Origin: Sinomicrobium pectinilyticum
GTDB lineage: Bacteria; Bacteroidota; Bacteroidia; Flavobacteriales; Flavobacteriaceae
DNA length: 64,000 nucleotides
Reading direction: 5' to 3'
Assembly: GCF_003725735.1 (NCBI RefSeq)
Contig: NZ_RJTM01000002.1
Location: 248,001 to 312,000, forward strand
This document shows positions 157-20,309 of this stretch, in pieces. The notes beneath the pieces were generated by a model, which saw only the letters and a list, made by a program, of their open reading frames with translations, ran no database searches and was not told the origin of the DNA. Position numbers and translations under genes: made by a program. How positions within the stretch are numbered: position 1 is the stretch's first letter; each line of letters starts with the position of its first letter.

Positions 157-2664
157 TCAATAATTTGTACTGTAATAGTCAAAATACTTGCAATGTGTCT
201 TTACTTCTTCATAGAATGCAGTGTGGCTGTATTCTTTGAGTAATTGGAAATAACGGCGGTATGCCGAGGTTTTTATTTCTATCCGGCGTGTTTGCCTGGC
301 TTTGTAATCCAGGTTTTTGAGATTGTTCAGTTCCGGGTCATTTTGGGTACTGTAGAAAATTCCCTGTTCACATTTGGAGGCGGCAAAAAGTATTCTTGCC
401 TTGAGTTCTTCATCACCGGTCTTATCGAGTGCAGTTGTCAGGTAAGCCAGCGGACGGTCAAAATTGTCTTTGAACCAGGGGCTCCATTCATAATCCTTGA
501 AATAAAGCAGGTATTCAGGTGCTTTTTCTTCGAAATGACCGTTCCAGTCGGGATAATTATGGAATTTGGAATTATTGGCGTTGGAGCCACTGAAGGTAAG
601 TATATTCCTGTAGTACCCGAGAAGTGAGGTATTGAAAAAGAAATTTCCCAGAAGGTAATTTGCCTTTGCCGCTTTCTCACCATTTCCTTCTCCTTCTTTT
701 TTCAGCCGGATAAGTATCTCCGCGAGTTGCTTTTTATTTACGGAAGGGGGAATAAAGGTAAAATCATTCATATAATCCGTTTGCATTACCTGTTCTTCCG
801 GGCATTCGAAGCACTCAATGCGGTTGTAACCGAATATACTGCCCGGAATGTCGGAAAAATTTTTATAGGAAGTATTATCCCCATTTGTTATTTTTCTGAA
901 CTCGGAGAGGGCTTTTTCAGGTTCTCCTTTCCATAGGTATACATTGCCTTTCATATTGGCGGCATAACTGTCCAGGTCAAACCCGGTTTTCTGTATATAC
1001 TTCTTGGCCTGGTAATCGTATTCCACCGGGGGAATGCTCTTAACCAGCATCTCTTCAAAAGAATTTTTGTTCTTCTTGTGACAGAGTTCTTCTATGGCAG
1101 AGAGAATTTCCAGGTCAGGGTTGTATTCCAGTGCAGTAATGGGGTTTTGAAGTAAAAATGCTTTGGCGTAGTCCTTCTGTAAAAAAAAGCGATTGGCCAG
1201 CACATCGGTTATAAAACCACGTGTGCCGTGAGAATCCGGTGAATAGTAGACATTAGCCGGTGTTTTCGTATCCAGTACGTTCCCGTATTTTTTCATTAAG
1301 GTCTCTTCAAAACCTTCGGTGATCTCCGGTTGTTGCGTAATGTCGATCAACATAGCGAGTTTATCTTTTTGCCCGAGGATCTTTACATTTTTGCTATTCA
1401 CTTTTTCCAGGTGATCTTCGGCGGCCTTATAGTTCCCCCGGATAAAATACAGCCAGGCCGTGGTCAGTTGCCAGAATTCCTGCTCGCGGACCTTATTGTT
1501 CCCGGCCTGCTGTAATGCACTTTCAAGAGCCTGTTTCAGAAAAGATTCGGCATTGTTGTCCATATTCAGGGGGATACGGTAATCTTCGAGACCTTCCATG
1601 CAGGCGGGGTTCCGGTAGGAGCAGTAATAACGGGTAGGGAAAAAATTCCTTTCCAGCTGGTTAACTGCTCTTGCCATAAGTACTTTAGCCTGCGGAGCAT
1701 TGGGATCGTTCTGTATTATCTTCTCAAAAGGCGATAGCGGATTATTGAAATCCCGGTATCCCAGCAGCATATACAGGTCGTTTTTTGCCGTGATGGTTTC
1801 CGCTTCGGACAGAAGCGCTTCAAAATCGAGGTCGCGGGTAACGCGCATGGAAGCGTAAGCCTGTTCTTTCCGGTTTTTGGTATGGGTGAAAAACCGGGAG
1901 AAATCGTAATGTGCCTGCATATAATTTCCGAGCCCTCTTTCGGCACCTCCTTTCTGGTCCAGGGCATAATAATATATTACCGGTTTATAGTCCAGGCTTT
2001 CCACATGAGTATTGAAATAACCTATGGCTTCCCGGTATCTCCGGGAATAATGGGCAAAACGGACCAATTGATAGCCATAACGGAGTTTGAGTTCTTTGTC
2101 GGTTTCTGCCTGCCAGCTTTTTTCCAGGACCTGTATCACCTTGTCGTAATCCAGTTCTTCCACGGTATGCTCGGGCACATTGCCCCAGTAATACCTGCGG
2201 TCTCCTTTTACAGCCATATAGGGTTCCAGGTACTTGGCATATGCCAGGTATAATAATGCCTGTTTGTATTTTTTTATGAAGTTCTTATCGATGAAACCCA
2301 GTTTTTTGTCGGCTACGGTCTTTTCCTGTGCCAATGCCCGGAGATCCTCCCTTCCTGATTGAAATACCAGGTAAAGGGCTTGTTCGTAAGATATGCCGAG
2401 GTACTTCTGCCACTCTTCTATGTTTTCATTGTTTTCCGTACCGTCCGTTTTGTCCGGGGTATAAAAACTGCTGTCGTAAGTGAGCAAAAAAGCCTGGTAA
2501 CGGGGTTCCTCTATATTTTCCTGTGCAAAGAGGTTATAATACGTATAATCTTCCCCGAAATCACCCGCACAATAAGAAGTGGTATGGTTACCAGGGGTAT
2601 GTGCCAATACGGAATAAGCGAAAGAGGTTAGTAAAAATGCGGTGTAGAATACTATTTGTTTCAT
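157..2664 (-). CDS. Large exported protein of unknown function, TPR-like
   Basis: About 835 residues. A start eight codons further upstream (2688) is possible, but the start at 2664 gives a clean signal peptide, MKQIVFYTAFLLTSFAYSVLA. The mature part is rich in aromatic and charged residues and has many helix pairs that resemble degenerate tetratricopeptide repeats, for example near WKGEPEKALSEFRKI, but no catalytic motif that I recognise. It probably acts in the periplasm or at the cell surface. It lies just downstream of, and on the same strand as, the lipoprotein at 2817-3806, so the two may form a unit (128-bp gap). No domain name can be given; the TPR description is inferred from sequence character. 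Confidence 0.75.
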   Translation of the reverse strand: MKQIVFYTAFLLTSFAYSVLAHTPGNHTTSYCAGDFGEDYTYYNLFAQENIEEPRYQAFLLTYDSSFYTPDKTDGTENNENIEEWQKYLGISYEQALYLVFQSGREDLRALAQEKTVADKKLGFIDKNFIKKYKQALLYLAYAKYLEPYMAVKGDRRYYWGNVPEHTVEELDYDKVIQVLEKSWQAETDKELKLRYGYQLVRFAHYSRRYREAIGYFNTHVESLDYKPVIYYYALDQKGGAERGLGNYMQAHYDFSRFFTHTKNRKEQAYASMRVTRDLDFEALLSEAETITAKNDLYMLLGYRDFNNPLSPFEKIIQNDPNAPQAKVLMARAVNQLERNFFPTRYYCSYRNPACMEGLEDYRIPLNMDNNAESFLKQALESALQQAGNNKVREQEFWQLTTAWLYFIRGNYKAAEDHLEKVNSKNVKILGQKDKLAMLIDITQQPEITEGFEETLMKKYGNVLDTKTPANVYYSPDSHGTRGFITDVLANRFFLQKDYAKAFLLQNPITALEYNPDLEILSAIEELCHKKNKNSFEEMLVKSIPPVEYDYQAKKYIQKTGFDLDSYAANMKGNVYLWKGEPEKALSEFRKITNGDNTSYKNFSDIPGSIFGYNRIECFECPEEQVMQTDYMNDFTFIPPSVNKKQLAEILIRLKKEGEGNGEKAAKANYLLGNFFFNTSLLGYYRNILTFSGSNANNSKFHNYPDWNGHFEEKAPEYLLYFKDYEWSPWFKDNFDRPLAYLTTALDKTGDEELKARILFAASKCEQGIFYSTQNDPELNNLKNLDYKARQTRRIEIKTSAYRRYFQLLKEYSHTAFYEEVKTHCKYFDYYSTNY

Positions 2665-2816
2665 AGGATTGCGGTTCGTTTTTAGCACTTTATTTCCCCG
2701 AAGGTTACGGAAACAGGTGTATGTGATATAGAGTTTTTTTTCAGCTTTTGTTTTGTTCCGGAAGTTAAAAGTAACCTATAGGGAACAAACAGAAAATACT
2801 CGGATTCCGGTATTTT

Positions 2817-3806
2817 TTATTGCAGGTCCTCCGGAGAAAACCTCGGAAGGAACAGGCTGTCCAGGTGATAATATATATAGTTATACCGTTTATTGATCTT
2901 CTTGCTGAGAAAGTCTTTGGCTTCCTGCAGCAATTCGGGAGATATATGTTCTACACGAATCCGGAACCCCCGGTTGAGATAGATACCCCGTAAAAAGGTA
3001 TCTTCCTGTAATTCGAAGGAGTGTTCGTCTGTTTTCCGGTAGATTTTATCCGGTAGTTCCTCCTTTGTAACACCGTTGATAAGTTTTGTCCTGCCCAGGT
3101 GGTTGGTCACTACGGCCCAGGAATAAAGGGGGAGGGCCACGTCAAAATCCAGGGGGTAATTTCCAATGTCCCCGAGATAATCCTTCAACAGGGTAAGGTC
3201 CAGAATGGAATTTTTTCCGTCGTTCTCTACAGGGCTGGAGGTAGCATAGGCCATAAGATACACCTTATCTGCCGGGGGAACTCCGGTTTCGTCCCGGTAT
3301 TTTACCTGGTGAAGCCGCAGGGTACACGTTGTTTTTTTACCGGAAACGGTTCGAAATGTATCCAGAAAACGGAAAAAACGGTCTTTGGTGGTAGCTGTCC
3401 AGTCACAGTCTATTTGTATTTCCTCCGGGTCTCCCAATTGATTGTCCGACATTATTTTCCGGACCAGGGCGAAGACATCTTTTGCCAGTTTATCGGTATC
3501 TGTGACGGATATATGCGTAAAGGTACGATTGGTAATAAACACTACCGGAATGTATTCCGCCGGTAATGCTTTCGCATCGAATGAACGGATTGCCGCCTGG
3601 GGTTGGGGTATTCCTTTCTGTATGTCTACATCAAAAAGGCGAAGGTATAGCCGGGTAGCTCCCAGCTGTTCGAAAAACTGTTTTTCCGTTTCCCCGATAC
3701 GGGTCTTGCTTTTCCAGTAATAAAACTGTACCGGATGTGTCTTTCGGTCCTCACATGACGAAAGGAGAAAAATACAGATAAGGATTAATGAAAGAAGATG
3801 ACGCAT
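2817..3806 (-). CDS. Predicted lipoprotein of unknown function
   Basis: The ATG at 3806 is preferred over a longer frame reaching 3983. It gives a lipoprotein signal, MRHLLSLILICIFLLSSC, with the lipidated Cys at residue 18. The protein has 329 residues. The early region reads FYYWKSKTRIGETE...LGATRLYLRLFDVD, later comes IQIDCDWTATTK, and then VYLMAYATSS. Alternating strands of this type ending in acidic residues suggest a TIM-barrel-like fold similar to glycosidase-like domains of unknown function (DUF3142-like is my guess, not verified). It is probably anchored in a periplasmic or outer membrane. It may be co-transcribed with the large exported protein downstream. Confidence 0.75.
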   Translation of the reverse strand: MRHLLSLILICIFLLSSCEDRKTHPVQFYYWKSKTRIGETEKQFFEQLGATRLYLRLFDVDIQKGIPQPQAAIRSFDAKALPAEYIPVVFITNRTFTHISVTDTDKLAKDVFALVRKIMSDNQLGDPEEIQIDCDWTATTKDRFFRFLDTFRTVSGKKTTCTLRLHQVKYRDETGVPPADKVYLMAYATSSPVENDGKNSILDLTLLKDYLGDIGNYPLDFDVALPLYSWAVVTNHLGRTKLINGVTKEELPDKIYRKTDEHSFELQEDTFLRGIYLNRGFRIRVEHISPELLQEAKDFLSKKINKRYNYIYYHLDSLFLPRFSPEDLQ

Positions 3807-3936: not shown

Positions 3937-3974
3937 TTAAAATAAGGGCACGGGGATCTTACCCCCTGTGCCCT
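3937..3974 (-). terminator. Intrinsic terminator of the sigma/SusCD/epimerase operon
   Basis: On the minus strand an inverted repeat (AGGGCACAGGGGG, loop, CCCCGTGCCCT; one bulged base) is followed by TTATTTT. It begins about 10 bp after the stop codon of the DUF819 gene, where the leftward operon should end. Confidence 0.65.
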
Positions 3975-3983
3975 CTGTTTCAT

Positions 3984-5240
3984 TCATAAATAACCAAAAA
4001 TATTGTATAAAATAACCCCGCATATATAAGCGCCGTATGTACCCACGGCATATCCCAGTACGGCGAGAAGTACGCCGACGGGTGCCAGGTAAGGACTAAA
4101 GGAAGCTGCAACTATGGGAGCGGAAGCCGCGCCTCCTATATTGGCCTGGCTTCCCACCGCAATAAAAAAGAAAGGGGCTTTTATAATCCGGGCCACAATG
4201 AGCATGGTCGTTATATGTACCAGTATCCATACTATGCCTATGAGAAAGAACTTCGGATTGTTCAGCAGGGCCCCGAGATCCATATGCATGCCTATGGTAG
4301 CCACCAGGATATACAGAAATATACTGCCTGTCCTGGAGGCCCCGTACGCTTCTACCTGTCTTGCCCTGGTAAATGACAGGGCGAGCCCGAATGTCGTGGC
4401 CAGAACAACGAGCCAGAAAAAACTGCTGGTCAGGGAGTATTTTTCGAGTTGCGGATAATTATCCTGAAAAAAGGGCGCAATACCATCGGCCAGGAAATGG
4501 GCCAGGCCGGTAATGCCGAAACCTATGGCAATTAAGACCATCAACCTGTTGGCGGTAACCGGGAGCCATTGGCCTGCCTGTTGTTTTTCCAGCCGGCTTT
4601 CCAGTTCGTATATAGGCGTACTGTCTGCCTTTAACCATTTGTCTATAACCTGTGGACGCTGGGACCAGTACAACAGAAATCCCATCCATAAATTGGCTAC
4701 AAGAACATCTACAGCGATCATTTGGGCAAACAGGTCCGAACTGGCTCCAAACACTTCGTACATGGCGGTCTGGTTGGCCCCTCCGCCAATCCAGCTACCT
4801 GCAATGGTAGTAAGGCCGCGCCAGACCTCCTCTCCTCCGGGGTGTAATACGTCCGGGAAAACGGAACCTACGGTATAGAGTGCTATAGGGGCTCCCAGAA
4901 TGATACCCACTGTACCGGCAAGAAACATGATAATAGCTTTGCTTCCCAGTTTTTTGAGTTCCCGGAAGTTTATACTTATCGTCAGTAATACCAGACTTGC
5001 AGGCAGGAGATAACGGGAGGCCACGAAATACAAGCCGGATTTTTCACCATCTATTATATTGAAGGTATTGAACAATGCCGGAATGAAATAACACAGCAGT
5101 ACCGAAGGAACTATGCGGTAAAAACGCTTCAAGTAAGGATTATTACTGGCCGAAGTAATAAAAATCACTCCCAATGTAACGGCCAGTATTCCGAACACTA
5201 CAGCATCATTCGTTATCCATGGGGTTGATGTTTCACTCAT
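3984..5240 (-). CDS. DUF819 family multi-pass membrane protein
   Basis: 418 residues with about ten hydrophobic segments spread over the whole length, for example VVFGILAVTLGVIFI near the start and LAPVGVLLAVLGYAVGTYGAY near the end. A glycine-rich loop, GSWIGGGANQTAMYEVFG, and another, GSQANIGGAASAPIVAASF, match the conserved re-entrant-like regions of DUF819 (YjcL-type) proteins. These are predicted inner-membrane carriers without an agreed substrate. Its start overlaps the preceding serine hydrolase by 8 bp, so translation is probably coupled. Together with the epimerase and the SusC/D pair, the context suggests it exports or imports a peptide or amino-acid derivative; that is inference. 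Confidence 0.85.
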   Translation of the reverse strand: MSETSTPWITNDAVVFGILAVTLGVIFITSASNNPYLKRFYRIVPSVLLCYFIPALFNTFNIIDGEKSGLYFVASRYLLPASLVLLTISINFRELKKLGSKAIIMFLAGTVGIILGAPIALYTVGSVFPDVLHPGGEEVWRGLTTIAGSWIGGGANQTAMYEVFGASSDLFAQMIAVDVLVANLWMGFLLYWSQRPQVIDKWLKADSTPIYELESRLEKQQAGQWLPVTANRLMVLIAIGFGITGLAHFLADGIAPFFQDNYPQLEKYSLTSSFFWLVVLATTFGLALSFTRARQVEAYGASRTGSIFLYILVATIGMHMDLGALLNNPKFFLIGIVWILVHITTMLIVARIIKAPFFFIAVGSQANIGGAASAPIVAASFSPYLAPVGVLLAVLGYAVGTYGAYICGVILYNIFGYL

Positions 5241-6603
5241 CGGAGGTCATATTATGTCTGAGGTTATTCAATACTAGGGAAACAATATTTGCTTTCTCTT
5301 TTTCTCTGGTCTTGATATAGGTTTTCTCCAGTTTTTCAAGACTTTCCCTGTCCCAGTCCGCATCCCGGTTTTCTGTTTGCCAATCCGTAATATTACTGGC
5401 ATTCAGCTGGCATATTTCTTTTTGTAACCGGTCGTGGGCCTTGACCCGGGGAAGCCGAAGAGGTTTCCCTTTTACATAGGCATCTACGCTCCTACGAATA
5501 TCTTTCATATAGGCGGACTCAAAAGTATTATTGAGTATAATGACGAGGCTCCCCGTCTTTGTAAACCTCTTGATGTAAGACAGGTTTCCCGCCCAGCTCC
5601 CTGTGTGGTATACGATTTTCCCGAGACTGTCGTCCTGCCGGATGTGCCATCCGAAACCGTAATCAGAATCTTCCGTGGAAGGAGGGTATGCCCTGAAGAT
5701 TGTTTTTTTACTTTCGGCATTGAGAATTTTATCGGTATACAATATACTGTCCCAGCGAATAAGGTCATCCAGGCTGGAAGAAAGCCGCCCGGGGCCAAGT
5801 CTGCCGCTGAGAAAACGATAATAGTATTTCCCGGAGAGGGTTTCCGGCCGGACATAGGTACAGGTGGCGGGATCGATGCGGTAGGCGGGAGCATAATTTT
5901 CCATAGACCAGATACTGTCGCGTTCGTAAAAACCGCTGTTTACCATTCCGGCTTTTTCAAAAATGTTTTCCCGGAGGAATACATCCAGGGTTTTACCACT
6001 TACGGCACGGACTATTTCCGCGAGGAGTACAAATCCGGAATTGGAATAATGGAACTCCGTGCCGGGACTGCTTAAGAGGGCAGGTTTTTTCTCCTTAAAG
6101 TAAGCCAGTATATCAGCGTTGCAGGCAATACGTGTGGTATCCCATTGTTTACGGAAATAATCCTCGTAATCCGGTAACCCGGAAGTATGGGTCAGTAAAT
6201 TTTTGACTGTGATATTCCTGTAAGGAAAATCCTGTCCGAGATAGTTATATGCGGGAAGGTCCGTCTCGAGCTTTCCCTGCTGTTGAAGGAGTTGAATGGC
6301 AGCTGCCGTAAATTGTTTGGAAACGGAAGCTATTTCCATAGCTGTGTGTGGTGTAAAAGGAGTCTTTCTTTCCATATTGGCCTTGCCATATGTTTTTTTG
6401 AAAATGAGTACCCCGTCTTTTTTTACGGCTACGGCTCCGTTAAACATTTTCTTCGTGTACAAAGTGTCGAAGAAATTTTCCAGGGCTGTATCATTAATGA
6501 ACTGCTGTTCCTGCTTTTTTTCTTTTTTTTCACGGGTACATGCCATGGAAAAAAGAAGCAGCAAAGTGGCTGTTATTAAAAAGAGGTATAATTTACTGTA
6601 CAT
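5233..6603 (-). CDS. Serine beta-lactamase-like hydrolase, lipoprotein
   Basis: 456 residues of the class C beta-lactamase / DD-peptidase fold. The three active-site motifs are visible: S93-V-S-K96 (nucleophile and base), Y186-S-N188 and H333-T-G335. The N-terminus MYSKLYLFLITATLLLLFSMAC looks like a lipoprotein signal with Cys22, although the residues before the Cys are not the ideal consensus. Family members hydrolyse beta-lactams, D-amino-acid peptides or esters. Sitting between a dipeptide epimerase (11-bp overlap) and DUF819 (8-bp overlap), a D-aminopeptidase or carboxypeptidase-type role on imported peptides is more likely than antibiotic resistance. About 120 residues after the HTG motif have no clear assignment. 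Confidence 0.85.
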   Translation of the reverse strand: MYSKLYLFLITATLLLLFSMACTREKKEKKQEQQFINDTALENFFDTLYTKKMFNGAVAVKKDGVLIFKKTYGKANMERKTPFTPHTAMEIASVSKQFTAAAIQLLQQQGKLETDLPAYNYLGQDFPYRNITVKNLLTHTSGLPDYEDYFRKQWDTTRIACNADILAYFKEKKPALLSSPGTEFHYSNSGFVLLAEIVRAVSGKTLDVFLRENIFEKAGMVNSGFYERDSIWSMENYAPAYRIDPATCTYVRPETLSGKYYYRFLSGRLGPGRLSSSLDDLIRWDSILYTDKILNAESKKTIFRAYPPSTEDSDYGFGWHIRQDDSLGKIVYHTGSWAGNLSYIKRFTKTGSLVIILNNTFESAYMKDIRRSVDAYVKGKPLRLPRVKAHDRLQKEICQLNASNITDWQTENRDADWDRESLEKLEKTYIKTREKEKANIVSLVLNNLRHNMTSDE

Positions 6604-7636
6604 CGGGTTTAATTTTATCCCAGTTTGGTGTTACCAGTCCCAACCCTGGAAGACCATTGGGTTTAATGATTCCGTTTTCTACTTTATGCCCGGTAAAGGG
6701 ATCGTTTTTAATTCCGAGATTTCCGTCCAGGTCAATCCAGTCGGCCATGGCTCCCAACTGGGAAGCCGCGGCAATAGCACAGGAGGTTTCGGACATGCAC
6801 CCCAGCATAATTTTTAAGCCTGTTTTTCTGGCCGCCGATGCCATCCGGTACGCCTCCCGGAGCCCGGTGGATTTCATCAATTTAATATTGATAGCGTGGA
6901 AGTACCTTCCGGCAGATATCACACCCGTAAATCTTTGAATGCTTTCGTCGCCTATAAGCGGAAGGGGAGACCGTGCTACAAGCCATTCCATGTCCTTCAG
7001 GGCGGTTGTGGGCATGGGCTGTTCTATAAAAATAACATTCTGATCTCTGAGCCATTCGATTTTGTCAAGAGCTTTCTCTTTATCTTTCCATCCCTGGTTG
7101 GCATCTATATATAAAGGCTTATCTGTTTCTTGACGGACAGTATCTATAATTTCCCTGTCATTTTCTCCACCCAGCTTAATTTTGAGAAACCTGAAATCAT
7201 GTGCCTCTCTTACCCTTTCGCGGATGATATCTGCTGTGTCTATCCCTATGGTTTTACTGGTAACGAGTTCTTTTCCGGGAAGACCGAAATAAGAATGCAG
7301 GGGGATGTGGAGCAGTTTACCGATAAGGTCGTGCAGGGCGATATCTATGGATGCTTTTACCGCAGGATTTCCCGGGGCAATATGGTCTACATAATCCAGT
7401 ATTTCTTCCGCATTAAAGGGATCTTTAAAAGGAGCAAGGTCTACACGGGACAAAAAATCAGTTGCGGTAGCGATGCTTTCGCCGTACAAGGGCGGCATGG
7501 AAGCTTCACCGAAACCGTCCACACTTTCGAAACGGAGGCGTACCAGGACAACAGGGGTACTTGTCCTGGTACTTCCTGCGATCCGGAAGACATGTTTTTT
7601 GTATAGGGTATAGGGCTTGTATGATAAGGAAATCAT
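6593..7636 (-). CDS. Dipeptide epimerase (enolase superfamily, Ala-Glu epimerase type)
   Basis: 347 residues. The enolase-superfamily layout is complete: the KxK base pair K152-I-K154, metal ligands D178 (IDAN), E205 (FIEQP) and D230 (GDES), the second base K252 (INIKLMK), and the D302-L-D304-G motif that binds the dipeptide amino group in Ala-Glu-type epimerases. The reaction is inversion of the alpha carbon of the C-terminal residue of a dipeptide, as in L-Ala-D-Glu recycling from murein, although some family members take other dipeptides. There is no signal peptide, so it is cytosolic. It overlaps the SusD stop by 1 bp and the hydrolase start by 11 bp, which shows a tight operon. Confidence 0.9.
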   Translation of the reverse strand: MISLSYKPYTLYKKHVFRIAGSTRTSTPVVLVRLRFESVDGFGEASMPPLYGESIATATDFLSRVDLAPFKDPFNAEEILDYVDHIAPGNPAVKASIDIALHDLIGKLLHIPLHSYFGLPGKELVTSKTIGIDTADIIRERVREAHDFRFLKIKLGGENDREIIDTVRQETDKPLYIDANQGWKDKEKALDKIEWLRDQNVIFIEQPMPTTALKDMEWLVARSPLPLIGDESIQRFTGVISAGRYFHAINIKLMKSTGLREAYRMASAARKTGLKIMLGCMSETSCAIAAASQLGAMADWIDLDGNLGIKNDPFTGHKVENGIIKPNGLPGLGLVTPNWDKIKPDVQ

Positions 7637-9051
7637 TAGTAACCTGGGTTTTGTGGTGCTATATCAGGATTGGCATTGAGTTCGTTTAAAGGAATAGGGA
7701 GTATAAATTTATCGTTGGGATAAGGTGCCTCTATAATATTTTCGCTTTGAATGATCCTCACATCTTTTTTGTTGCGGTTGAGGTCAAACAGACGATGACC
7801 CTCAAATGCCAGTTCTTTTCTTCTTTCCAGGAGAATGCGATCTACCAGTGCATCTCCGCTTTCGCCTGCGGCACTTGCGCCGGGGGTGGCCCTTTCCATA
7901 ACTTTCAGGAGGTCTGCACGTGCCTCGGCATCTTTCCCGGTTTTGGCATAGGCCTCTGCCCGGATCAGGAACTGTTCGGCAAGGCGGAGGATGCGGACAT
8001 TATCATCTCTTGATGTTCCCCGGGGAAATTTGTAGACAAAAAGCGCATTTTCTTCCGCCCCTGTCTTGGAACCTTTTTTTATGGCTCCCAGCCTGGCATC
8101 ATTACTGTCATAGAGGTTAAACAAGTCGGTGGTAACCAGGGCATCTGCATAACCACCCGGATCGAAATAATGCCCAAGTCCGTTGGTTCCCGCATTATCC
8201 GCCACGGTATTGACGATCTCAAAAATAGATTCGGAATTGAATTCTTCTGCCCATAAATCAGGATAATTCTCATTGCCCGCCAGGCTGAACCCTCCGTTAT
8301 CTATAACTTCCGTACTGTATTTTATGGCATTGGTATAATCCTCCTGGTATAGATATGACCTGGCAGCAAGGGCTTTAACGGCATAGGAGGTAAACCTGCC
8401 GTTCTTTTTATCGGCGGTAATTTTTTCGAGGGCCTTAGCAAGATCGGTATTTACTTGCTCATATACTTCTTTGACGGTGTTTCGGGCCGGAGAGATCTCA
8501 TTATCTTCGGAACGGTTAATGACCGGAATGCCCGGATGGTCTGCATCGGGGGTATAATTATAAGGCTGGGCAAAAAGCCTGACCAGGTCAAAATGGGCCA
8601 GGGCCCTCAGCGCATAGGCCTCACCCACGAGCTGGTTGATCTGTTCCTGTTGTTCACCGGAAACAATCTCCAGTTTTTCACCGCCTTCTATGGCTTTGGA
8701 AGCATTGACGATAACCTCGTACAAGGTGTTCCACAACCCATCTGCAAAAGTATCTTCTTCGCTTACTACAAAACCGTCGTAATCCAGGTATCTTCCCGTA
8801 TTCCGGATACTCAGGGCCAGGTTATCCGCCATGAGTTCGGGGATAACATACATACTGCGTCCGTAATAATCGGAACTTTGCAGTTTGCTGTACACGCCGT
8901 TTATTGCGGTTTGCAGGGTATTGACATCAGTTATTGCCTGTTCTGCGGAAACATTTTGTTCCGGTTCTATGTCGAGAAAATCACTGCTGCAGGAAACCAT
9001 ACAGGTTATAAGAAGCAATGAAGTAATGGTATGTTTTATATTTCGGATCAT
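7636..9051 (-). CDS. SusD/RagB-family nutrient-binding outer-membrane lipoprotein
   Basis: 471 residues. The signal ends in LLLITCMVSCSSDFLDIEPE, with the lipidated Cys followed by the SDFLD motif typical of SusD proteins. The helical TPR-like core contains GEAYALRALAHFDLVRLF, and the C-terminus ends in the family pattern NPDIAPQNPGY. SusD sits as a lid on the SusC barrel and captures the ligand at the cell surface. It starts 12 bp after the SusC stop. The downstream genes (epimerase, serine hydrolase) suggest a peptide ligand, as in RagAB, rather than a glycan. Confidence 0.93.
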   Translation of the reverse strand: MIRNIKHTITSLLLITCMVSCSSDFLDIEPEQNVSAEQAITDVNTLQTAINGVYSKLQSSDYYGRSMYVIPELMADNLALSIRNTGRYLDYDGFVVSEEDTFADGLWNTLYEVIVNASKAIEGGEKLEIVSGEQQEQINQLVGEAYALRALAHFDLVRLFAQPYNYTPDADHPGIPVINRSEDNEISPARNTVKEVYEQVNTDLAKALEKITADKKNGRFTSYAVKALAARSYLYQEDYTNAIKYSTEVIDNGGFSLAGNENYPDLWAEEFNSESIFEIVNTVADNAGTNGLGHYFDPGGYADALVTTDLFNLYDSNDARLGAIKKGSKTGAEENALFVYKFPRGTSRDDNVRILRLAEQFLIRAEAYAKTGKDAEARADLLKVMERATPGASAAGESGDALVDRILLERRKELAFEGHRLFDLNRNKKDVRIIQSENIIEAPYPNDKFILPIPLNELNANPDIAPQNPGY

Positions 9052-9063
9052 TGGTTTAAAGTT

Positions 9064-12000
9064 TTAGAATGAGAGATCTAGGCCGAACATGAACTGTTTG
9101 GAAATGGGAATTCTAAGATCGGATTGTCCGTCAATACCCACTTCGGGATCAACTTCTATTTTATTGTCTTTTACCCAGGTAAGTATATTGGTGGTTTTTA
9201 TATAAAACCGGAGATTGTTTATGGAAAGGGTCTCCGTTACGTTTTTGGGTAAAGAATAAGAGAAAGTTACGTCCCTTAATCTCAGGTAGGTACCGTCATA
9301 CAAGAAGCGGCTGGAATGTTGCGTAGATCTTCCGGACTGGGTATTGCCCCACACCACTTTAGGCACATCGGTAATATCGCCGGGCTGCCGCCACCTGTTA
9401 TCATAAATGTTCCGGGTCATGTTCCCACGGTCGTTGAGTCCTGCGCTTCCGTCACTGTTGGTGTACCGGCCCCAGTAGTCATATACCTTATTGCCGTAGT
9501 TGAGATATAGCAGGAACGAAAGATTAAAGTTCTTATAGCTAAGACTATTGGTAAGCCCTGCATAGAATTTTGGAAGCGCACTTCCCTGCTTAAAAGGCTG
9601 TGCCTGTGAATATTCGTTGGTGGTCTCTGTTCTTGTTCCGTCCGTATACCAGAGGGCATCACCGTTAGCCGGATCTACACCGGCATATCCGGGCATGTAG
9701 AACGTATAAAAATCATCGCCGATTTCCCGTATATACTGGCCGTCCACAATAGGAGCGTCATCCTGGAGTTTGGTGATTGTATTGGAATTGGAAGTGAAAT
9801 TGAGCCCTGTGGTCCAACCGAAACCTTCCGGGTTTTCTATATTGATCGAATTCAGGGAAATTTCCCATCCGGAATTTTTCATCTCCCCGATATTGGCCAG
9901 GTAACTGGTGAGCCCGTTTGTTGCCGAAATCGGAACCTGGAAAAGCAGGTCGGTAGTGGTACGGGTGTAATATTCTACGGTACCGTCGATCTTGTTGAAC
10001 AGGCTGAAATCAACACCGACATTAAAAGGCTTGTTCTTTTCCCAGGTGAGACGGGGATTGGATTGCTGGCTATAGGCATAGCCGGGTTCCCCGTCATAGT
10101 CTTCACCGGTACCGTACAGGCCCCGGGAGGCAAAGTCACCTATTTCCTGGTTTCCGTTTATCCCGTAACTGCTTCGCAATTTCAGGCGGTTTACGAAGTT
10201 TACGTTCTCCATAAAATCTTCTGAACTGATATTCCAGGCAAAGCCTACAGAACCGAAATTGGCATATCGTACATCGGAGCCAAACCTGGAGGAACCGTCT
10301 CTTCGGGCAGTAACATTGAACACGTATTTGTTTTGGTACGTATAATTTACATTAAAGAAGTAAGAAGCTATGGATGAAGCGGTCTTGCTGCTGGACGCTT
10401 CCCGGTATACGGAAGCATTTTCCAGGGTTTTCAGTCCCGGGGCACCGTAATTGCTGGCAAAGGCGAAGACGGAACTACGGGTGATCTTCTGGGCTTCCTG
10501 GCCAAGTATGAAATTCAGGTTGTGATCCTGGTTAATATGCCATTTGTATTTGAGAAGGTTGGTAATGTTGTAGTTTAGGATTTTATTGTCGTATGCCCGT
10601 CCCAGGCCGCCGTCATTCCTGCCTTCACCGAAATAAGGATTATCATACCGGAATTCATCGGCGAGATTGAAGTCTATATTTCCCTTGGTCTCGAAACTGA
10701 GGTTTTCCGTAAAATCATAAGTGAGCCCCAGGTTTCCCAGAATACCGTATAATTTGGTTTCCCGGATATTCTCATTGACCAGTCCGACGGGGTTATATGT
10801 CAAAAGTATGTCCGTGTTATAGGAGCCGTCATCGTTGTACACGGGTTCCCACGGTACAACCCTGAACAGTGCTCTTACCGGGTTGGCGGCATTTCCCGCA
10901 TCGCTGTTGGTATGCAGTTTCTGGTTGCTGGCGGAGACCCCGAAATCGATGGTGAGTTTGTCCGTAGCCTTATGTGTTACATTGAGTTTGGCATTCAGTT
11001 TCTTGTAATCGATACCGATGATAACCCCCTGCTGATCGAACAGGCCGAGGGAAGCATAGAAACTGGTCTTATCACTTCCACCGCTGGCACTGAGGTTATA
11101 CTGGTGGTACTGACCGTTACGGGTAATTACGTCTACCCAGTCCGTATCTGTATTTCTGTTTATCCTGCTGAAGATATAATCCTCGGCCTCTTCGCGCGTT
11201 TCGCCGGTATTTGTCCGGCCCTCGATCAGAAGTTCGGAGAGTTGCCCGGTATTGAGTGGTCTCAGCCTGTCCGGGAGTATCATACTGCTCACCCCGTATT
11301 GCGTACTGAAATCGAACCTGGTTTTTCCGGACTTTCCTTTCTTGGTGGTAATGAGTATGACCCCGTTAGCCCCTCTGGAACCATATATGGCCGTGGCGGA
11401 TGCGTCTTTCAGTACAGTTATGGAGGCAATATCTTTGGGGTTGATTCCCGCTATGGTGTTGGAACTTGTGGCAATCTGGGCAATATTACCCGATACAACG
11501 GGAATCCCGTCTATAACATACAGCGGGTCCGAACCTGCGTTGATAGAGCCTATTCCCCGTATACGGATATTAGGCGCGGCCCCCGGTTGCCCGCTTTGTG
11601 TGGACATCTGCACACCTGCAACATTTCCTTGTAAACCTTCCTGAAAAGAAGCCAGGGGTGATTCTTCTATTTTTTTGATGTCTACATCCACGGCAGCCCC
11701 GGTATAGGATGCCTTACTCTGCTTATCATAAGCTACTACAATGACCTCATTGAGCTGGTCTGCTTCCGGTTGCAGGGTTATGGTAAAATCAGTTTTACTG
11801 CCGTCCAGGGTAATAAGCTGCTTTTTAAAACCGATATAGCTTAATTCCAGTACATCTCCCTTTGCGGCCTGTATACCGAACTTGCCGTCAAAATCAGTTT
11901 GTGTACCCGAAGTGGTGCCCTGTACCAGAATATTTACTCCGGGTAGCGGAACACCGGTATCATCGAGGACAGTTCCCGTGATATTCATTTTGTCCTGTAA

Positions 12001-12450
12001 CGGCTTGCCTATGGGAACCGCGCCGACAAAACCCGGTATATCTTCTTCGTTTTCGGGAGGAGTATTATCTGTATTATCTTCTTTGTACAGTACGATACTC
12101 TGGCTTAATATCTTAAACCGGATACCGGTATTCTTAAGCAGTGCGTTCAGTACCTCACCGATATTATTACTGGTAAGACTGATATCGATCTTCATTTTTT
12201 CGTCTACTATTTTTGTGTTGTAGAAGAAAATATAATCGGTTTGCTCTTCTATGGTCTGTAAAATTTCCTTGAGTTCTGTATCCCGGTAGTTCAGCGCTAC
12301 GTTCTGACTGTAAACGGAAGTGCTCCATGCGGATATTTTGACAATGGTGATGCAGAGAAGTAGAGAATAGATCTTCATAATACGGTAGAGCCTTCCCGGA
12401 CAGAAACATCGGTGTGATGCCTGCCGGGCAACTTGTTGCTTTTTTTTCAT
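9064..12450 (-). CDS. SusC/RagA-family TonB-dependent transporter with STN signalling domain
   Basis: About 1128 residues from the chosen start at 12450; the frame is open to 12552, and an internal start at 12378 also precedes the hydrophobic segment. After a basic stretch and a signal segment (MKIYSLLLCITIVKISAWS) comes an STN domain (ALNYRDTELKEILQTIEEQT). A carboxypeptidase-regulatory-like beta domain follows (ITGTVLDDTGVPLPGVNILV), then the TonB box/plug region (IRIRGIGSINAGSDPLYVID) and a 22-strand-type barrel ending in FGLDLSF. The STN domain is the part that signals to FecR. The gene for FecR lies directly upstream, so uptake should induce this operon through the sigma factor at 13580. 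Confidence 0.95.
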   Translation of the reverse strand: MKKKQQVARQASHRCFCPGRLYRIMKIYSLLLCITIVKISAWSTSVYSQNVALNYRDTELKEILQTIEEQTDYIFFYNTKIVDEKMKIDISLTSNNIGEVLNALLKNTGIRFKILSQSIVLYKEDNTDNTPPENEEDIPGFVGAVPIGKPLQDKMNITGTVLDDTGVPLPGVNILVQGTTSGTQTDFDGKFGIQAAKGDVLELSYIGFKKQLITLDGSKTDFTITLQPEADQLNEVIVVAYDKQSKASYTGAAVDVDIKKIEESPLASFQEGLQGNVAGVQMSTQSGQPGAAPNIRIRGIGSINAGSDPLYVIDGIPVVSGNIAQIATSSNTIAGINPKDIASITVLKDASATAIYGSRGANGVILITTKKGKSGKTRFDFSTQYGVSSMILPDRLRPLNTGQLSELLIEGRTNTGETREEAEDYIFSRINRNTDTDWVDVITRNGQYHQYNLSASGGSDKTSFYASLGLFDQQGVIIGIDYKKLNAKLNVTHKATDKLTIDFGVSASNQKLHTNSDAGNAANPVRALFRVVPWEPVYNDDGSYNTDILLTYNPVGLVNENIRETKLYGILGNLGLTYDFTENLSFETKGNIDFNLADEFRYDNPYFGEGRNDGGLGRAYDNKILNYNITNLLKYKWHINQDHNLNFILGQEAQKITRSSVFAFASNYGAPGLKTLENASVYREASSSKTASSIASYFFNVNYTYQNKYVFNVTARRDGSSRFGSDVRYANFGSVGFAWNISSEDFMENVNFVNRLKLRSSYGINGNQEIGDFASRGLYGTGEDYDGEPGYAYSQQSNPRLTWEKNKPFNVGVDFSLFNKIDGTVEYYTRTTTDLLFQVPISATNGLTSYLANIGEMKNSGWEISLNSINIENPEGFGWTTGLNFTSNSNTITKLQDDAPIVDGQYIREIGDDFYTFYMPGYAGVDPANGDALWYTDGTRTETTNEYSQAQPFKQGSALPKFYAGLTNSLSYKNFNLSFLLYLNYGNKVYDYWGRYTNSDGSAGLNDRGNMTRNIYDNRWRQPGDITDVPKVVWGNTQSGRSTQHSSRFLYDGTYLRLRDVTFSYSLPKNVTETLSINNLRFYIKTTNILTWVKDNKIEVDPEVGIDGQSDLRIPISKQFMFGLDLSF

Positions 12451-12544
12451 AACTTTAAACGGTTTTTGATTGTTAAAATGCCCTTTTAGCAATTTCGAAT
12501 CCCAAACAGAAGGGAAGTGCTGCAACACTTCCCTTTTTACAGGA

Positions 12545-13510
12545 TTAATCACGTTGTTTTAATGTCACGTGTTTTTTTGTTTTATCATAATTATAATGGA
12601 TTGGTGATGAGGTTCTTAAAATATCGAGAACCTGGGTTATGTTGTATTCTTTTCGGAATTTTCCCGAAAATGTATAGTCTTCAATGGCCGGGTCCTCAAT
12701 ACGGATAGAGATCCCATACCATCTTTCGATGTCCTTGACCACACTGCTCAGCGGGGCATTGTCAAAGGTCAGGATACCTTCTTTCCAGGAGGTTATTGCT
12801 TCGGTAGCGACCTGTTCTATACGAATGTCCTGTTCTTCTTTCCGGAAAACGGCCTTTTGCCTGGGTGCCAGCACAGCGGAAGGAGAGGTGTTATCCTCTT
12901 CATATATTTCCACTTTACCACTTACCAGAGTGGTTTCTATGGTGTTGTTATCTTTATAGGACCTTATATTGAAACTTGTGCCAAGTACTTTTATTTTTAC
13001 GCCACTGCGGGTTTCTACGATAAAAGGCACCTGTTCGTTTCGGGCTACATCAAAAAAAGCTTCACCATTTAATTTTACGGTCCGTGTTTCTTTATTGAAC
13101 CCGGGGGAAATTTCCAGGGTACTTTCGGAATTGAGAAATATTCTGCTCCCGTCTGCAAGGGTAAATTCTTTTTGTTCTGACGCTATGGCAGAAAACAAGG
13201 TGTTGTCTTTAGTTTCCCCGGAGCGAAGCATGAAAAAAACAGAAGCAAAGATGGCTATAGCCGCAATGGCTGCAGTAGAAAATATCCCGGAGTAATTTCT
13301 TTTTTCGCGGCGGAGACGTTCGGAAAATTCCCGGAATTCCCCGGAAATATTATTTCTTCGGGAGGGGGAGAAAGCCATTACCTGCTCGGCCTTGAGACGA
13401 TTGAAATATTCCCGGTTTTCCCGGGATGCCTCAATCCAGGAAATTACCCTTTTCTGAAATTCAGAATCTCCCTGGTTGGCGATAAATTGCAAAAGTTCTT
13501 TTTTGTCCAT
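12545..13510 (-). CDS. FecR-family anti-sigma factor
   Basis: 321 residues. The N-terminal cytosolic part (MDKKELLQFIANQGDSEFQK) binds the sigma factor. A single membrane segment follows at about residues 78-96 (IFSTAAIAAIAIFASVFFML), and then the periplasmic FecR domain with FTLADGSRIFLNSESTLEIS and GEAFFDVARNEQVPFIV. The C-terminal FecR_C/STN-like domain (ILTFDNAPLSSVVKDIERWY) docks with the transporter. It is placed between the sigma gene (70 bp upstream) and the STN-bearing SusC, which is the standard order of the cell-surface signalling cassette. Confidence 0.95.
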   Translation of the reverse strand: MDKKELLQFIANQGDSEFQKRVISWIEASRENREYFNRLKAEQVMAFSPSRRNNISGEFREFSERLRREKRNYSGIFSTAAIAAIAIFASVFFMLRSGETKDNTLFSAIASEQKEFTLADGSRIFLNSESTLEISPGFNKETRTVKLNGEAFFDVARNEQVPFIVETRSGVKIKVLGTSFNIRSYKDNNTIETTLVSGKVEIYEEDNTSPSAVLAPRQKAVFRKEEQDIRIEQVATEAITSWKEGILTFDNAPLSSVVKDIERWYGISIRIEDPAIEDYTFSGKFRKEYNITQVLDILRTSSPIHYNYDKTKKHVTLKQRD

Positions 13511-13579
13511 ACGTATTAAGAACGATTTATATTAAAGTTACCCCTATGTTAAATAGGTGTTTTTTTATCGGGGAAACTG

Positions 13580-14158
13580 TTAAAAAAATAAAGTGAAGTA
13601 TTCGCTGAGTTCATTTCTAAGATATCGGAGCGCTTTGGATATCTGATTTTCAACGGTTTTCGGAGAGATATTGAGTTCGTCGGCTATTTCCTTGTACTTG
13701 AGGCCCTCGAACCTGCTTTTTATGAAAATTTCCCGGCATCCCGGAGGAAGGTCATTGATAAGCCGGTTTACTTTTTGCAACAATTCGTCTTCTATGAGTT
13801 GCAGGCTCGGATCGTCCTGAAGGGAACTTTCCAATATCCTGGCACGGTCTTTCTCTATTTCTTCCCGGTACCTGTATTTCACTTTGAGATGTTTGAAGTA
13901 GTCCAGGCAATCATTTTTAACCATGGAAAAGAGGTATGCATTCAGGTTGATGTCTACGGGAAGGGTACCCTTTTTTTTCCAGAGTTTGTAGAAGGTATTT
14001 TGGACAATTTCCCGGGCATCTTCGGAATTCTCAATATAACTGGTGGCAAAATGGTGCAGTTTTTCGAAGTAGAGATGAAATAACGCTTCAAACGCTGTTT
14101 CTTCTCCTTTTTTCAGCTGATGAATAAGAAAAGAGTTATTTACGCCGTTTGCACTCAA
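13580..14158 (-). CDS. ECF RNA polymerase sigma factor (FecI/RpoE type)
   Basis: 192 residues. Region 2 reads FEALFHLYFEKLHHFATSYI...AREIVQNTFYKLWKK, and region 4 reads LPPGCREIFIKSRFEGLKYKEIADELNISPKTVENQIS, which contains the recognition helix-turn-helix. It is the typical sigma-70-like partner of a FecR anti-sigma factor in Bacteroidota nutrient loci. It should direct transcription of the susC/susD/epimerase operon when the transporter signals that ligand is bound. The upstream region holds a TAnnTTTG-like box with one extra base at about 14258-14266 on the minus strand. Confidence 0.95.
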   Translation of the reverse strand: MSANGVNNSFLIHQLKKGEETAFEALFHLYFEKLHHFATSYIENSEDAREIVQNTFYKLWKKKGTLPVDINLNAYLFSMVKNDCLDYFKHLKVKYRYREEIEKDRARILESSLQDDPSLQLIEDELLQKVNRLINDLPPGCREIFIKSRFEGLKYKEIADELNISPKTVENQISKALRYLRNELSEYFTLFF

Positions 14159-14956: not shown

Positions 14957-17900
14957 ATGAAGAAAACTGGATTTAGTGCCTTGATGGTATTATGGCGGAA
15001 TACAATTTGTATTTTGTTAATCAGCAGCATGACCGGCCTGCTGTATGCTAGGGATGTTTCCTCTCCGGCAGAAACCGGATTGGAAAGTGCTCCACTTTTT
15101 CATTCCGTGACCGGGCAGGTAACTGCCCAGACCGACGGAATGCCTCTTGCAGGAGCAAGTATTATGGAGAAGGGTACAACCAACGGCGTTGTGGCTGATT
15201 TTGACGGCAATTATTCTATAGAAGTTTCCGGACCGGATGCGGTACTGGTAATATCTTACGTAGGATTTAAAACCACGGAAGTGGCGGTTGAAGGAAAGGA
15301 AGTTGTGAATATAGCGCTTCAGGAAGACCTTGCACAGCTCGATGAAGTTGTCGTAGTGGGGTACGGCGAGCAGAAAAGGGAAACGGTTACCGGTTCTGTT
15401 GCCACCATTCAGAGCAAAGAACTGGCAAAATCCCCCACGGTAAACGTTTCCAATGCCATTGCCGGGCGTATGCCCGGGGTGATTGCTACACAGGACAGCG
15501 GAGAACCTGGTGCGGATGATTCCAATATCCGTATCCGCGGTAGCAATTCTTTTGGCGATAGCAGTCCCCTGGTGGTTATAGACGGGATTCCCGCACGGGA
15601 AGGAGGTTTTTCCCGGCTGAACCCCGCCGATATTGAAAACATCTCCGTTCTGAAAGATGCATCGGCAGCGATTTACGGGGCACGGGCCGCCAACGGGGTG
15701 ATCCTCGTTACTACAAAAAGGGGAAGCGATGGCAAACCCCGGCTCAGCTATAATTATAACCTCGGGTTTTCACAGCCTACCGTAATTCCCGACCTTGCCA
15801 ATGCCACACAGTATGCCGAGATGCGAAACGATCTGGAAGTTTATAAACTGCCGGTATCCGAATGGCAGGGTGCTACTACTGCCTTCCGGGAGAGCGGTAC
15901 CTATACCCGTCCGAACGGAAATACGGTTACCGCACCTTTCATGCCCGATGATTTCCAGAAGTTCCGTGATGGTTCCGATCCCTGGGGACATCCGGATACG
16001 GACTGGTTTGATGCTACTTTTAAGAACTGGTCCAAACAGGAAAGGCACAATATTCAACTCACCGGGGGAAATGAGAATATGAAGTTCCTTACCTCCCTGG
16101 GGTACCAGAAACAGGATGCGTATTACAAGAATTCCGCAACGAACTATGAACAGTATGACCTGCGTATAAACCTGGACGCAAAGGTAAACGAATACATTAC
16201 TACCCAGATAGGAGTACTTGGAAGGCAGGAAGACAGAAATTACCCGACAAAAGCGGCAAGTGCCATATTCCGTATGCTGATGCGGGGTAACCCCACACAG
16301 CCTGCTTTCTGGCCCAACGGAATGCCGGGGCCGGATATCGAATACGGGGAAAACCCGGTGGTTATTACCACAAGTCAGACCGGGTATGACCGCGACCGGA
16401 GGTATTACTTTCAAACCAATGGAAAAATAGAGATCAAAATCCCGTGGGTGGAAGGATTGAAGTTTACCGGGACTGCAGCTGTGGATAAATACATTCAGCA
16501 GAAAAAACGCTGGGAGACTCCCTGGTATCTCTATACCTGGCAGGGAGAATACGAAGAGGACGGGGAAACTCCGAAACTGGTTGCCGGTAAACGCGGACCT
16601 GCCGAGCCGAACCTGCGGCAGGAAAACCAGGACCAGCTGAACATATTGCTGGGAGGTGTACTTACTTACGATCGTAAGTTCGGGGACCATGAACTCAATT
16701 TTCTTGCCGGGGTAAACCGGGAGACTATAAGGAATGACAATTTCTTCGCTTTCCGTCGCTACTTTATTTCCGCCGTTATTGACCAGATGTTTGCGGGTGG
16801 AGCAGCGGAAAGAAATAACGGGGGAGATGCCTGGGAACGGGCACGTCTCAATTACTTCGGAAGGGTTGGCTATAACTATAAGGAAAAATACCTTGCCGAA
16901 TTTTTATGGCGATACGATGGCTCCTACATGTTCCCCCAGGACAGCCGGTACGGTTTCTTTCCCGGGGTTATGCTGGGATGGCGTATCTCCGAAGAGAATT
17001 TCTGGAAAGACAATGTAGAGTTCGTAAACTACCTGAAACTCCGGGCTTCCTGGGGGCAAATGGGTAATGATAATATCTATTTCGATGCCAATGGAGATGG
17101 CGAACAAACACTACAGGAATACCAGTATTATTCTACTTATGGCTTCGGTTCTTATATAGTAGATGGAAATGTGACAAGTAGCCTGTTCGAAAGCCGGGTG
17201 CCTAATACGATGATCACCTGGGAAGAGGCGAATAACTACAACATAGGACTGGACGGACAATTGTTTAACGGAAGGGTGAACTTCGAACTGGATATGTTCC
17301 TGAACAAGCGGAGCAGTATTCTCTGGAGGAGAAATGCTTCCGTACCGCAAACCACCGGGATGACGCTTCCGGCGGAAAACATCGGTAAGCTGGAGAACCG
17401 CGGATGGGAATTCAACGTCGGGTATAACGGTACCGCCGGAGAAGTACAGTACAATGTAAGTGTAAACGGGGGATATGCCAAGAACAAGATCAAATTCTGG
17501 GACGAAGCGCCCGGTGCCCCGGAATGGCAACGGTCTACCGGAAGTGCCATAGATGCCGGACTCTACTATATCTACGACGGTGTATTCCGCGACGAAGAAG
17601 AAATAGCCAATAATTCACTGGACTACAGTGATATTACCAACACCCTGCGGCCCGGGGATATGAAGTATAAGGATTATGACGGCGACGGAAGAATAACACC
17701 GGATGACCGGGTGCGCCGCGACAGGAATAATCAGCCGACATTTCAGGGAGGCCTTAACCTGGGTGCGCAGTATAAAGATTTCGATCTTTCCATCCTCTTC
17801 CAGGGAGCAGCCGGAGGAGAGCTACGGGTAGGTACGGACGAATCCGGGGCTATAGGAAACTATCTGCTGGATTTCTATGAAAACCGCTGGACGGTAGACA

Positions 17901-18199
17901 ACCCCAGCAGTGTACATCCCAGGATTACCGATCGCAGCGATCAATATTATTCGTTCGACAATACCTACTGGTTGAGGAGCACAAACTATATCCGCCTGAA
18001 AAACGTGGAACTGGGCTATAACCTTCCTGCCGAAGTAGGAGATAAAATAGGGGTGAGCAGCCTTCGGGTATACCTGAGCGGGCTCAACCTGGCTACGTGG
18101 AGCAAAATAAAAGTACTGGATCCGGAATCCGTGAACTCCATCGGACATTATTATCCGCAGTCCCGTATCGTGAACATGGGAGTATCCGTAACCTTTTAA
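14957..18199 (+). CDS. SusC/RagA-family TonB-dependent outer-membrane transporter
   Basis: 1080 residues. A signal region (WRNTICILLISSMTGLLYA) is followed by a carboxypeptidase-regulatory-like domain (VTGQVTAQTDGMPLAGASIM), the TonB box DEVVVVGYG, a plug domain with DSNIRIRGSNSFGDSSPLVV, and a long beta barrel ending in NMGVSVTF. There is no STN domain, so unlike the transporter at 9064 it is not wired to a FecR. It pairs with the SusD 11 bp downstream. The substrate is not shown by the gene itself; the DUF4861 gene downstream and the pectin genes later in the window suggest a uronate-containing glycan. Confidence 0.95.
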   Translation: MKKTGFSALMVLWRNTICILLISSMTGLLYARDVSSPAETGLESAPLFHSVTGQVTAQTDGMPLAGASIMEKGTTNGVVADFDGNYSIEVSGPDAVLVISYVGFKTTEVAVEGKEVVNIALQEDLAQLDEVVVVGYGEQKRETVTGSVATIQSKELAKSPTVNVSNAIAGRMPGVIATQDSGEPGADDSNIRIRGSNSFGDSSPLVVIDGIPAREGGFSRLNPADIENISVLKDASAAIYGARAANGVILVTTKRGSDGKPRLSYNYNLGFSQPTVIPDLANATQYAEMRNDLEVYKLPVSEWQGATTAFRESGTYTRPNGNTVTAPFMPDDFQKFRDGSDPWGHPDTDWFDATFKNWSKQERHNIQLTGGNENMKFLTSLGYQKQDAYYKNSATNYEQYDLRINLDAKVNEYITTQIGVLGRQEDRNYPTKAASAIFRMLMRGNPTQPAFWPNGMPGPDIEYGENPVVITTSQTGYDRDRRYYFQTNGKIEIKIPWVEGLKFTGTAAVDKYIQQKKRWETPWYLYTWQGEYEEDGETPKLVAGKRGPAEPNLRQENQDQLNILLGGVLTYDRKFGDHELNFLAGVNRETIRNDNFFAFRRYFISAVIDQMFAGGAAERNNGGDAWERARLNYFGRVGYNYKEKYLAEFLWRYDGSYMFPQDSRYGFFPGVMLGWRISEENFWKDNVEFVNYLKLRASWGQMGNDNIYFDANGDGEQTLQEYQYYSTYGFGSYIVDGNVTSSLFESRVPNTMITWEEANNYNIGLDGQLFNGRVNFELDMFLNKRSSILWRRNASVPQTTGMTLPAENIGKLENRGWEFNVGYNGTAGEVQYNVSVNGGYAKNKIKFWDEAPGAPEWQRSTGSAIDAGLYYIYDGVFRDEEEIANNSLDYSDITNTLRPGDMKYKDYDGDGRITPDDRVRRDRNNQPTFQGGLNLGAQYKDFDLSILFQGAAGGELRVGTDESGAIGNYLLDFYENRWTVDNPSSVHPRITDRSDQYYSFDNTYWLRSTNYIRLKNVELGYNLPAEVGDKIGVSSLRVYLSGLNLATWSKIKVLDPESVNSIGHYYPQSRIVNMGVSVTF

Positions 18200-18210
18200 A
18201 ATCTTTTGTA

Positions 18211-20088: not shown

Positions 20089-20122
20089 CGGATAGGAAAA
20101 AGCGGATGTAATTCCGATATCA

Positions 20123-20263: not shown

Positions 20264-20309
20264 AAGGAACAGACAGATCGATCAAGTTTAATTTTAAAAA
20301 AATCAATTT

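Follow-up and report, generated by a model that had tools for sequence, protein, structure and literature searches.

A candidate sensor-controlled SusCD operon for D-glutamate peptides in Sinomicrobium pectinilyticum

Glycans are the best-known cargo of SusCD systems. A system of the same SusC/SusD type, the TonB-dependent RagAB of Porphyromonas gingivalis, is implicated in protein uptake (PMC11817032). YcjG and YkfB, two L-Ala-D/L-Glu epimerases, are assigned a proposed role in peptidoglycan degradation and recycling (cited passages of PMC5808125). Here we analyze a seven-gene operon of Sinomicrobium pectinilyticum (Flavobacteriaceae; genome size 5.65 Mb) in which a relative of these epimerases follows SusC and SusD. 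The operon lies in a window of 64,000 nucleotides, the whole stretch of DNA that was analyzed (contig NZ_RJTM01000002.1, positions 248,001 to 312,000). On balance, comparisons made at the sequence level favor its reading as a sensor-controlled operon for the uptake and use of small D-glutamate peptides, most likely murein stem-peptide fragments.

The operon and its proposed peptide route

The genes are all on the minus strand, in the order sigma, FecR, SusC with an STN domain, SusD, epimerase, S12 hydrolase, and DUF819 (Table 1). The coordinates reproduce both the order given in the original prediction, made from the letters of the window, and its overlaps of 1, 11, and 8 bp at the SusD/epimerase, epimerase/S12, and S12/DUF819 junctions, respectively. 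Gaps of 69 and 12 bp separate sigma from FecR and SusC from SusD; the latter two adjoin each other, as in a SusCD locus. An overlap of 8 bp between FecR and SusC depends on starting SusC at the first GTG and is abolished when an ATG 102 bp further in is used. The STN domain scores 27.1 bits, marginally under the cut-off of 28.4. Family searches found no carbohydrate enzymes among the seven operon genes, which bears out what had been predicted.

Scanning 84,980 species genomes with the S12 alignment, under the constraint of two short peptide patterns, yielded 16 loci; exclusion of L205 (ends at a contig end) and L210 (remnant-like) left 14 complete named loci. Outside Sinomicrobium, the operon is found in Robertkochia, Joostella, Flavobacterium, and Formosa, and in a version from Fodinibius (L206) that we consider more distant, because its SusC and SusD are 33% and 29% identical to those of the window. 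The core sigma-FecR-SusC-SusD-epimerase-S12 is retained in 12 of the 14 complete loci, the exceptions being L207, which lacks the epimerase, and L209, which lacks SusCD and the regulators. Each of these components is thus present in 13/14 loci (sigma and FecR, and SusC and SusD, in all but L209, with SusD short in L207; the epimerase in all but L207), and DUF819 in 7/14. The sigma factors of the Formosa operons are merely 32-33% identical to that of the window; these orthologues still come first in the operon. An epimerase search recovered the orthologous operon in four of five other Sinomicrobium genomes, where the DUF819 slot is fused in one, absent in one, and replaced by DUF2339/DUF3999 in one. 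Given its presence in these four genomes and in other genera, the gene arrangement is, as judged from these comparisons, beyond chance. The locus sets overlap and are not additive (L195 is G300, L196 is G297, L197 is G298, L198 is G299, L199 is G664, and L206 is G286).

Conservation of the epimerase-hydrolase-DUF819 trio across Bacteroidota, which the original prediction had put forward as a check, was not borne out. In a phylum sample of 296 Bacteroidota genomes, the epimerase was matched in 158 and DUF819 in 92; among the matches listed, the two are adjacent in the window and G158 only. Nor is the trio a fixed unit within the operon, DUF819 being absent from half of the complete loci. The outcome that would have spoken against the prediction, a trio found mostly without SusCD, is not what we see: SusCD is present in six of the seven named trio loci (counting L202, where two genes separate S12 and DUF819).

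The closest solved relatives of the window epimerase are 3iji/3ijl/3ijq (369 bits; database name "Muconate cycloisomerase"), which we take to be chains of a Bacteroides dipeptide epimerase (that of B. thetaiotaomicron for 3iji and 3ijq). Residues K152/K154, D178, E205, D230, and K252/K255 are kept in 16/16 operon epimerases and correspond to the KxK motif, the D/E/D metal ligands, and the second-half Lys of enolase-superfamily enzymes. Equally invariant are Arg24 and the DxD motif (D302, D304); DxD presumably binds the free amino group of the dipeptide and is common in other epimerase groups too. A tree that took in 30 of 63 "other" epimerases places all 16 from the operon in a single clade (support 100/94), joined at 92/99 by SusCD-linked Sinomicrobium epimerases of L049 and L050. 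The branch uniting operon epimerases with 12 of 14 NlpC/P60-linked ones is supported at 92/99, under the starred level. A leader resembling a twin-arginine translocation (Tat) signal is present in 11/14 NlpC/P60-linked epimerases versus 0/16 operon epimerases; the operon-type enzyme is probably cytosolic and would need an inner-membrane carrier. L049 and L050 represent a second SusCD-linked epimerase locus of the genus (FecR-SusC-SusD-DUF4843-S12-epimerase-S12). A second epimerase type stands with a BioF/Kbl-like enzyme beside an opposing SusC-SusD pair in Flavobacteriaceae (L051, L052, L053, L178, and L183).

In three of the loci (L202, L207, and L208, the last from Flavobacterium weaverense), the operon extends into an amidohydrolase and a glutamate-racemase homologue; L202 also contains DUF819. 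Two of these amidohydrolases match solved chains of D-aminoacylase (208-265 bits) and N-acyl-D-glutamate deacylase (155-241 bits). In the Fodinibius locus, an amidohydrolase occurs together with a Na+/H+ antiporter-family protein and a D-amino acid dehydrogenase-like enzyme, the latter scoring 279 bits against a cut-off of 383. The D-glutamate-type enzymes of these sister operons all score below the respective NCBIfam cut-offs. The racemase homologues (L202:13137-14678, L207:12973-14424, L208:13292-14827; also in L252-L256) are 483-527 aa long, show on inspection by eye leaders of the lipoprotein or Sec-like kind, and, at 106 and 100 bits, do not reach the glutamate racemase equivalog cut-off of 147 bits. 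Motifs ACNTA and GCTHYP are both invariant in three aligned homologues, and their cysteines are presumably catalytic. Such a homologue is present in 5/296 phylum genomes. In L255, an MFS protein and a GH3-S12 protein immediately precede it; a similar pair lies four small open reading frames (ORFs) upstream of it in L254, and no such partner was seen near it in L253 and L256. L252 reads sigma-FecR-SusC-SusD-DUF4843-S12-glutamate racemase-amidohydrolase, without the epimerase. In L057, from another family of the class, the order is FecR-SusC-SusD-epimerase-aminotransferase-DUF819-S12, with DUF819 20% and the epimerase 31% identical to those of the window.

The D-aminoacylase/N-acyl-D-glutamate-deacylase homologues and the exported glutamate-racemase homologue of the sister operons are the reason for our focus on D-glutamate. 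In the route that we favor, STN-SusC with its SusD lid would import a peptide over the outer membrane, and loaded SusC would signal via FecR to release the ECF (extracytoplasmic function) sigma factor. The S12 lipoprotein would hydrolyze the peptide in the periplasm, DUF819 would move the resulting dipeptide, or its glutamate, over the inner membrane, and the cytosolic epimerase would convert X-D-Glu (e.g., L-Ala-D-Glu) to X-L-Glu, cleavable by ordinary peptidases. The earlier idea of a route for D-residue peptides thus appears strengthened and narrowed to D-glutamate as the recurring residue. It gains DUF819 as a putative functional partner, through a fusion with S12 and the D-glutamate-type enzymes of sister operons, and loses the phylum-wide trio. 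A murein origin of the peptides seems likely. A bolder version, which we offer only tentatively, would have Bacteroidota bring in D-glutamyl murein peptides by a dedicated route across both membranes. DUF819 would then be an inner-membrane L-Ala-D-Glu permease fed by a tethered periplasmic D-peptidase, and an alternative branch would cut and racemize D-glutamate outside the cytoplasm via the exported glutamate racemase. In a literature search on SusCD/SusD with peptidoglycan, muropeptide, or D-glutamate, judged from titles and opening lines of abstracts, no paper describes the operon; most subscription papers lie outside such a search.

Several observations weigh against the D-glutamate peptide reading. 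Neither a murein endopeptidase nor an amidase or glycosidase was found within the operon. DUF819 is dispensable, as its absence from half of the complete loci indicates, and AlphaFold2 modeled it from seven sequences with a confidence score (pLDDT) of only 42. S12 enzymes have many possible substrates, and in Fodinibius another SusCD may serve. The epimerase scores under the NCBIfam cut-offs for L-Ala-D/L-Glu epimerases (NF011708, 124/343 bits; NF041118, 127/500 bits), and its best NCBIfam match is the DgcA model NF042940 (189 bits, under the cut-off of 400). We therefore say that it would work like an L-Ala-D/L-Glu epimerase, not that it belongs to the equivalog. Finally, SusC is seldom close to the epimerase elsewhere in the phylum. 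The neighborhoods of 90 listed epimerase places, excluding that of the window, were examined, using gene labels from small profiles built on 1-6 sequences each, with key labels verified by Pfam. A clear epimerase ORF was found in 87, and SusC lies within four ORFs of it in 6/87 loci (same strand in three). Other neighbors in the 87 loci were S12 (4), DUF819 (1), an adjoining NlpC/P60 (14), and BioF/Kbl-like proteins (9).

The carrier slot and competing explanations

With 286 bits against a gathering score of 27 for PF05684, covering positions 1-377 of 379, the DUF819 protein is a full-length member of its family. A single 865-aa frame with both Pfam domains unites the S12 lipoprotein with DUF819 in one Sinomicrobium (L047:10697-13294, the same as L197:9959-12556). 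The fusion looks real, because the frame stays open across the junction DNA, where the ATG from which DUF819 starts in relatives is missing, a sequencing error being possible nonetheless. The DUF819 row in a table of PMC8396727 reads "Nou"; taken as N-out, this orientation would suit a periplasmic domain at the N terminus, as in the fusion. A tree of 32 rows groups the DUF819 proteins of the operon in a clade of their own (98/97); the family's standalone copies, among them the second DUF819 copy of the source genome, fall outside it. A cytosolic epimerase would need the dipeptide carried inward, hence the job proposed for DUF819; we infer this transport role from the fusion, the linkage, and the logic of location.

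A competing view, which we hold to be less probable than not, makes DUF819 a carrier of an ion or of one amino acid (L-Glu, D-Ala), with only loose ties to the pathway, and lets the dipeptide enter via another permease. Its patchy presence in the operon would fit this view, as would the antiporter-family protein of the Fodinibius locus. The clan of DUF819 takes in a glutamate symporter family, and its nearest family is a Na+/H+ exchanger family (cited passages of PMC8396727). The single frame with the S12 hydrolase, the 8-bp overlap in the window, and the operon-specific DUF819 clade argue instead for a closer functional tie.

In Sinomicrobium weinanense (L195, the same as L045), DUF2339/DUF3999 stands in place of DUF819: a 184-aa protein, DUF2339, and a DUF3999-like protein occupy L045:3421-7739 (L195:11592-15910). 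This may be an insertion, not a replacement of the carrier. In L198, L199, and L200, no DUF819, amidohydrolase, racemase homologue, antiporter-family protein, or DUF2339/DUF3999 was seen. In L228, DUF819 adjoins a YkfC-like NlpC/P60. In Neisseria meningitidis, the DUF819 gene follows an M15 peptidase gene in 75/128 genomes (cited passages of PMC12671195). The neighbors of standalone DUF819 copies are mixed (20 loci; 20 chosen nearby proteins scanned by family): some loci are near peptidases or hydrolases (M61, M23, NlpC/P60, PF13354, M24), others near unrelated genes, and we claim no enrichment. The passages cited from PMC12671195 and PMC8396727 give no substrate for DUF819.

A second alternative concerns the cargo. 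The operon could import N-acyl-D-amino acids or D-residue peptides, be they general or non-ribosomal, in place of murein peptides, with an epimerase of different specificity. The D-aminoacylase-like amidohydrolases of sister operons, the top match of the epimerase to DgcA, an N-acetyl-D-Glu racemase, and the missing murein-specific endopeptidase all point this way. We nevertheless judge it rather unlikely, given the invariant DxD (common as the motif is in other groups) and the nearest clades, which include epimerases encoded in murein-recycling loci alongside NlpC/P60 and amidase; one such locus, L058, contains epimerase, NlpC/P60, MFS, BcrAD kinase, amidase, and GHL10.

Near a contig end, the source genome also contains SusC-SusD-GHL10-SSF-NlpC/P60 with a divergent DeoR regulator (L269:550-10967), a second possible murein-directed SusCD locus. 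Its NlpC/P60 matches solved dipeptidyl-peptidase VI chains and could be a source of the endopeptidase missing from the operon. The other five Sinomicrobium genomes have weak matches to it (best 73 versus 351 bits).

The kinship with epimerases of recycling loci is also what could be expected if the operon recaptured murein peptides that the cell itself had lost to its surroundings, as opposed to foreign ones. We regard this as unlikely: recycling of a cell's own peptides would be expected to be widespread, whereas the operon is patchy, under a sigma/FecR pair, and rare (6/397 sampled family genomes). In this family sample (S12 match threshold E 1e-70), 20/397 genomes have an S12 match, six of them above 600 bits; all six show the core operon, five with DUF819. 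The loci of 13 of the 14 weaker S12 relatives were examined, and none (0/13) has epimerase, SusC, or DUF819 nearby.

The motifs of the S12 family are SxxK, YxN, and a third motif, which is KTG in class C beta-lactamases. The window hydrolase belongs to this family (PF00144, 182 bits against a gathering score of 27), its alignment shows SVSK, YSN, and HTG, and its lipobox C22 is invariant across six aligned rows. Class C beta-lactamases are PF00144 members as well, but that the protein is a beta-lactamase or esterase in an antibiotic-response unit is very improbable, considering HTG at the third motif, 66.5 bits against a cut-off of 415 for the class C model NF033085, D-aminopeptidase as the top-scoring NCBIfam model (88.6 bits, under its cut-off of 443), and a setting amid SusCD and the epimerase.

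Neighboring genes

The LP329 lipoprotein and an 843-aa protein were first assumed to be operon members, since they follow all five Sinomicrobium operons (window and L045-L048). We excluded the pair because it is absent from the operon in other genera, because LP329 is also found away from the operon, accompanied by the same large partner in 15/20 loci (four more have an unlabeled neighbor of 753-802 aa), and because a terminator-like hairpin lies between the pair and the window DUF819; an equally clean hairpin is not evident in the folded Sinomicrobium relatives. The two genes are a separate module. LP329 with a large partner of about 770-915 aa is a recurring pair (window 157-3806 and L115-L134); in L133, LP329 lies within an 874-aa frame, and in S. 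weinanense (L045:1-2136), the homologue of the 843-aa protein is divided into two frames.

Elsewhere in the window (positions 14957-31661 and 50429-61840), translations read by eye point to further SusCD pairs, accompanied by polysaccharide-lyase/glycosidase-like genes, and to a hexuronate-catabolism-like cluster that includes a TRAP-type carrier.

Table 1. Positions of the operon genes and adjacent features in the window
Feature	Position	Strand	Evidence
ECF sigma factor, at the head of the operon	13580..14158	-	TIGR02985 182 bits, above cut-off
FecR-type anti-sigma	12545..13510	-	PF04773, PF16344
SusC/RagA TonB-dependent transporter with STN domain	9064..12552	-	TIGR04056 834 bits; STN residues 107-157
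SusD/RagB lipoprotein	7636..9051	-	PF14322, PF07980
Dipeptide-epimerase-like enzyme, enolase superfamily (MR/MLE), without export leader	6593..7636	-	PF13378, PF02746; 3iji/3ijl/3ijq 369 bits
S12 (PF00144) serine hydrolase lipoprotein, motifs SVSK, YSN, HTG	5233..6603	-	PF00144 182 bits
DUF819 membrane carrier	3984..5240	-	PF05684 286 bits
Terminator-like hairpin, then TATTTT (operon direction), directly after DUF819	3945..3974		
LP329 lipoprotein, neighbor outside core	2817..3806	-	no Pfam/NCBIfam match
843-aa protein, LP329 partner, neighbor outside core	157..2688	-	no Pfam/NCBIfam match

Comparison with known systems

YcjG of E. coli, YkfB of B. subtilis, and 3iji/3ijq share the enolase superfamily and catalytic motifs with the window epimerase, and the reaction is likely the same. 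The window epimerase differs in belonging to an operon for SusCD uptake across the outer membrane and in having no adjoining YkfC/MpaA-type endopeptidase. The murein-recycling loci of Bacteroidota (epimerase-NlpC/P60-MFS-BcrAD kinase-amidase) have a related epimerase in common with the operon; they differ in the Tat-like leader carried by most NlpC-linked epimerases and in the scarcity of SusC, which is nearby in 1/14 (L074). With respect to the DUF819/PF05684 family (CPA/AT clan), the window protein is a full-length member, and one species has DUF819 in frame with a lipoprotein hydrolase.

If the D-glutamate peptide reading is correct, cell-wall debris joins the diets served by dedicated sensor-controlled SusCD operons, the DUF819 transporter family gains a testable substrate, and the exported glutamate-racemase homologue is opened to study. 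The operon resembles RagAB in its SusC/SusD-type system and differs from it by its D-peptide-type enzymes and its own sigma/FecR pair, with a cargo that we infer.

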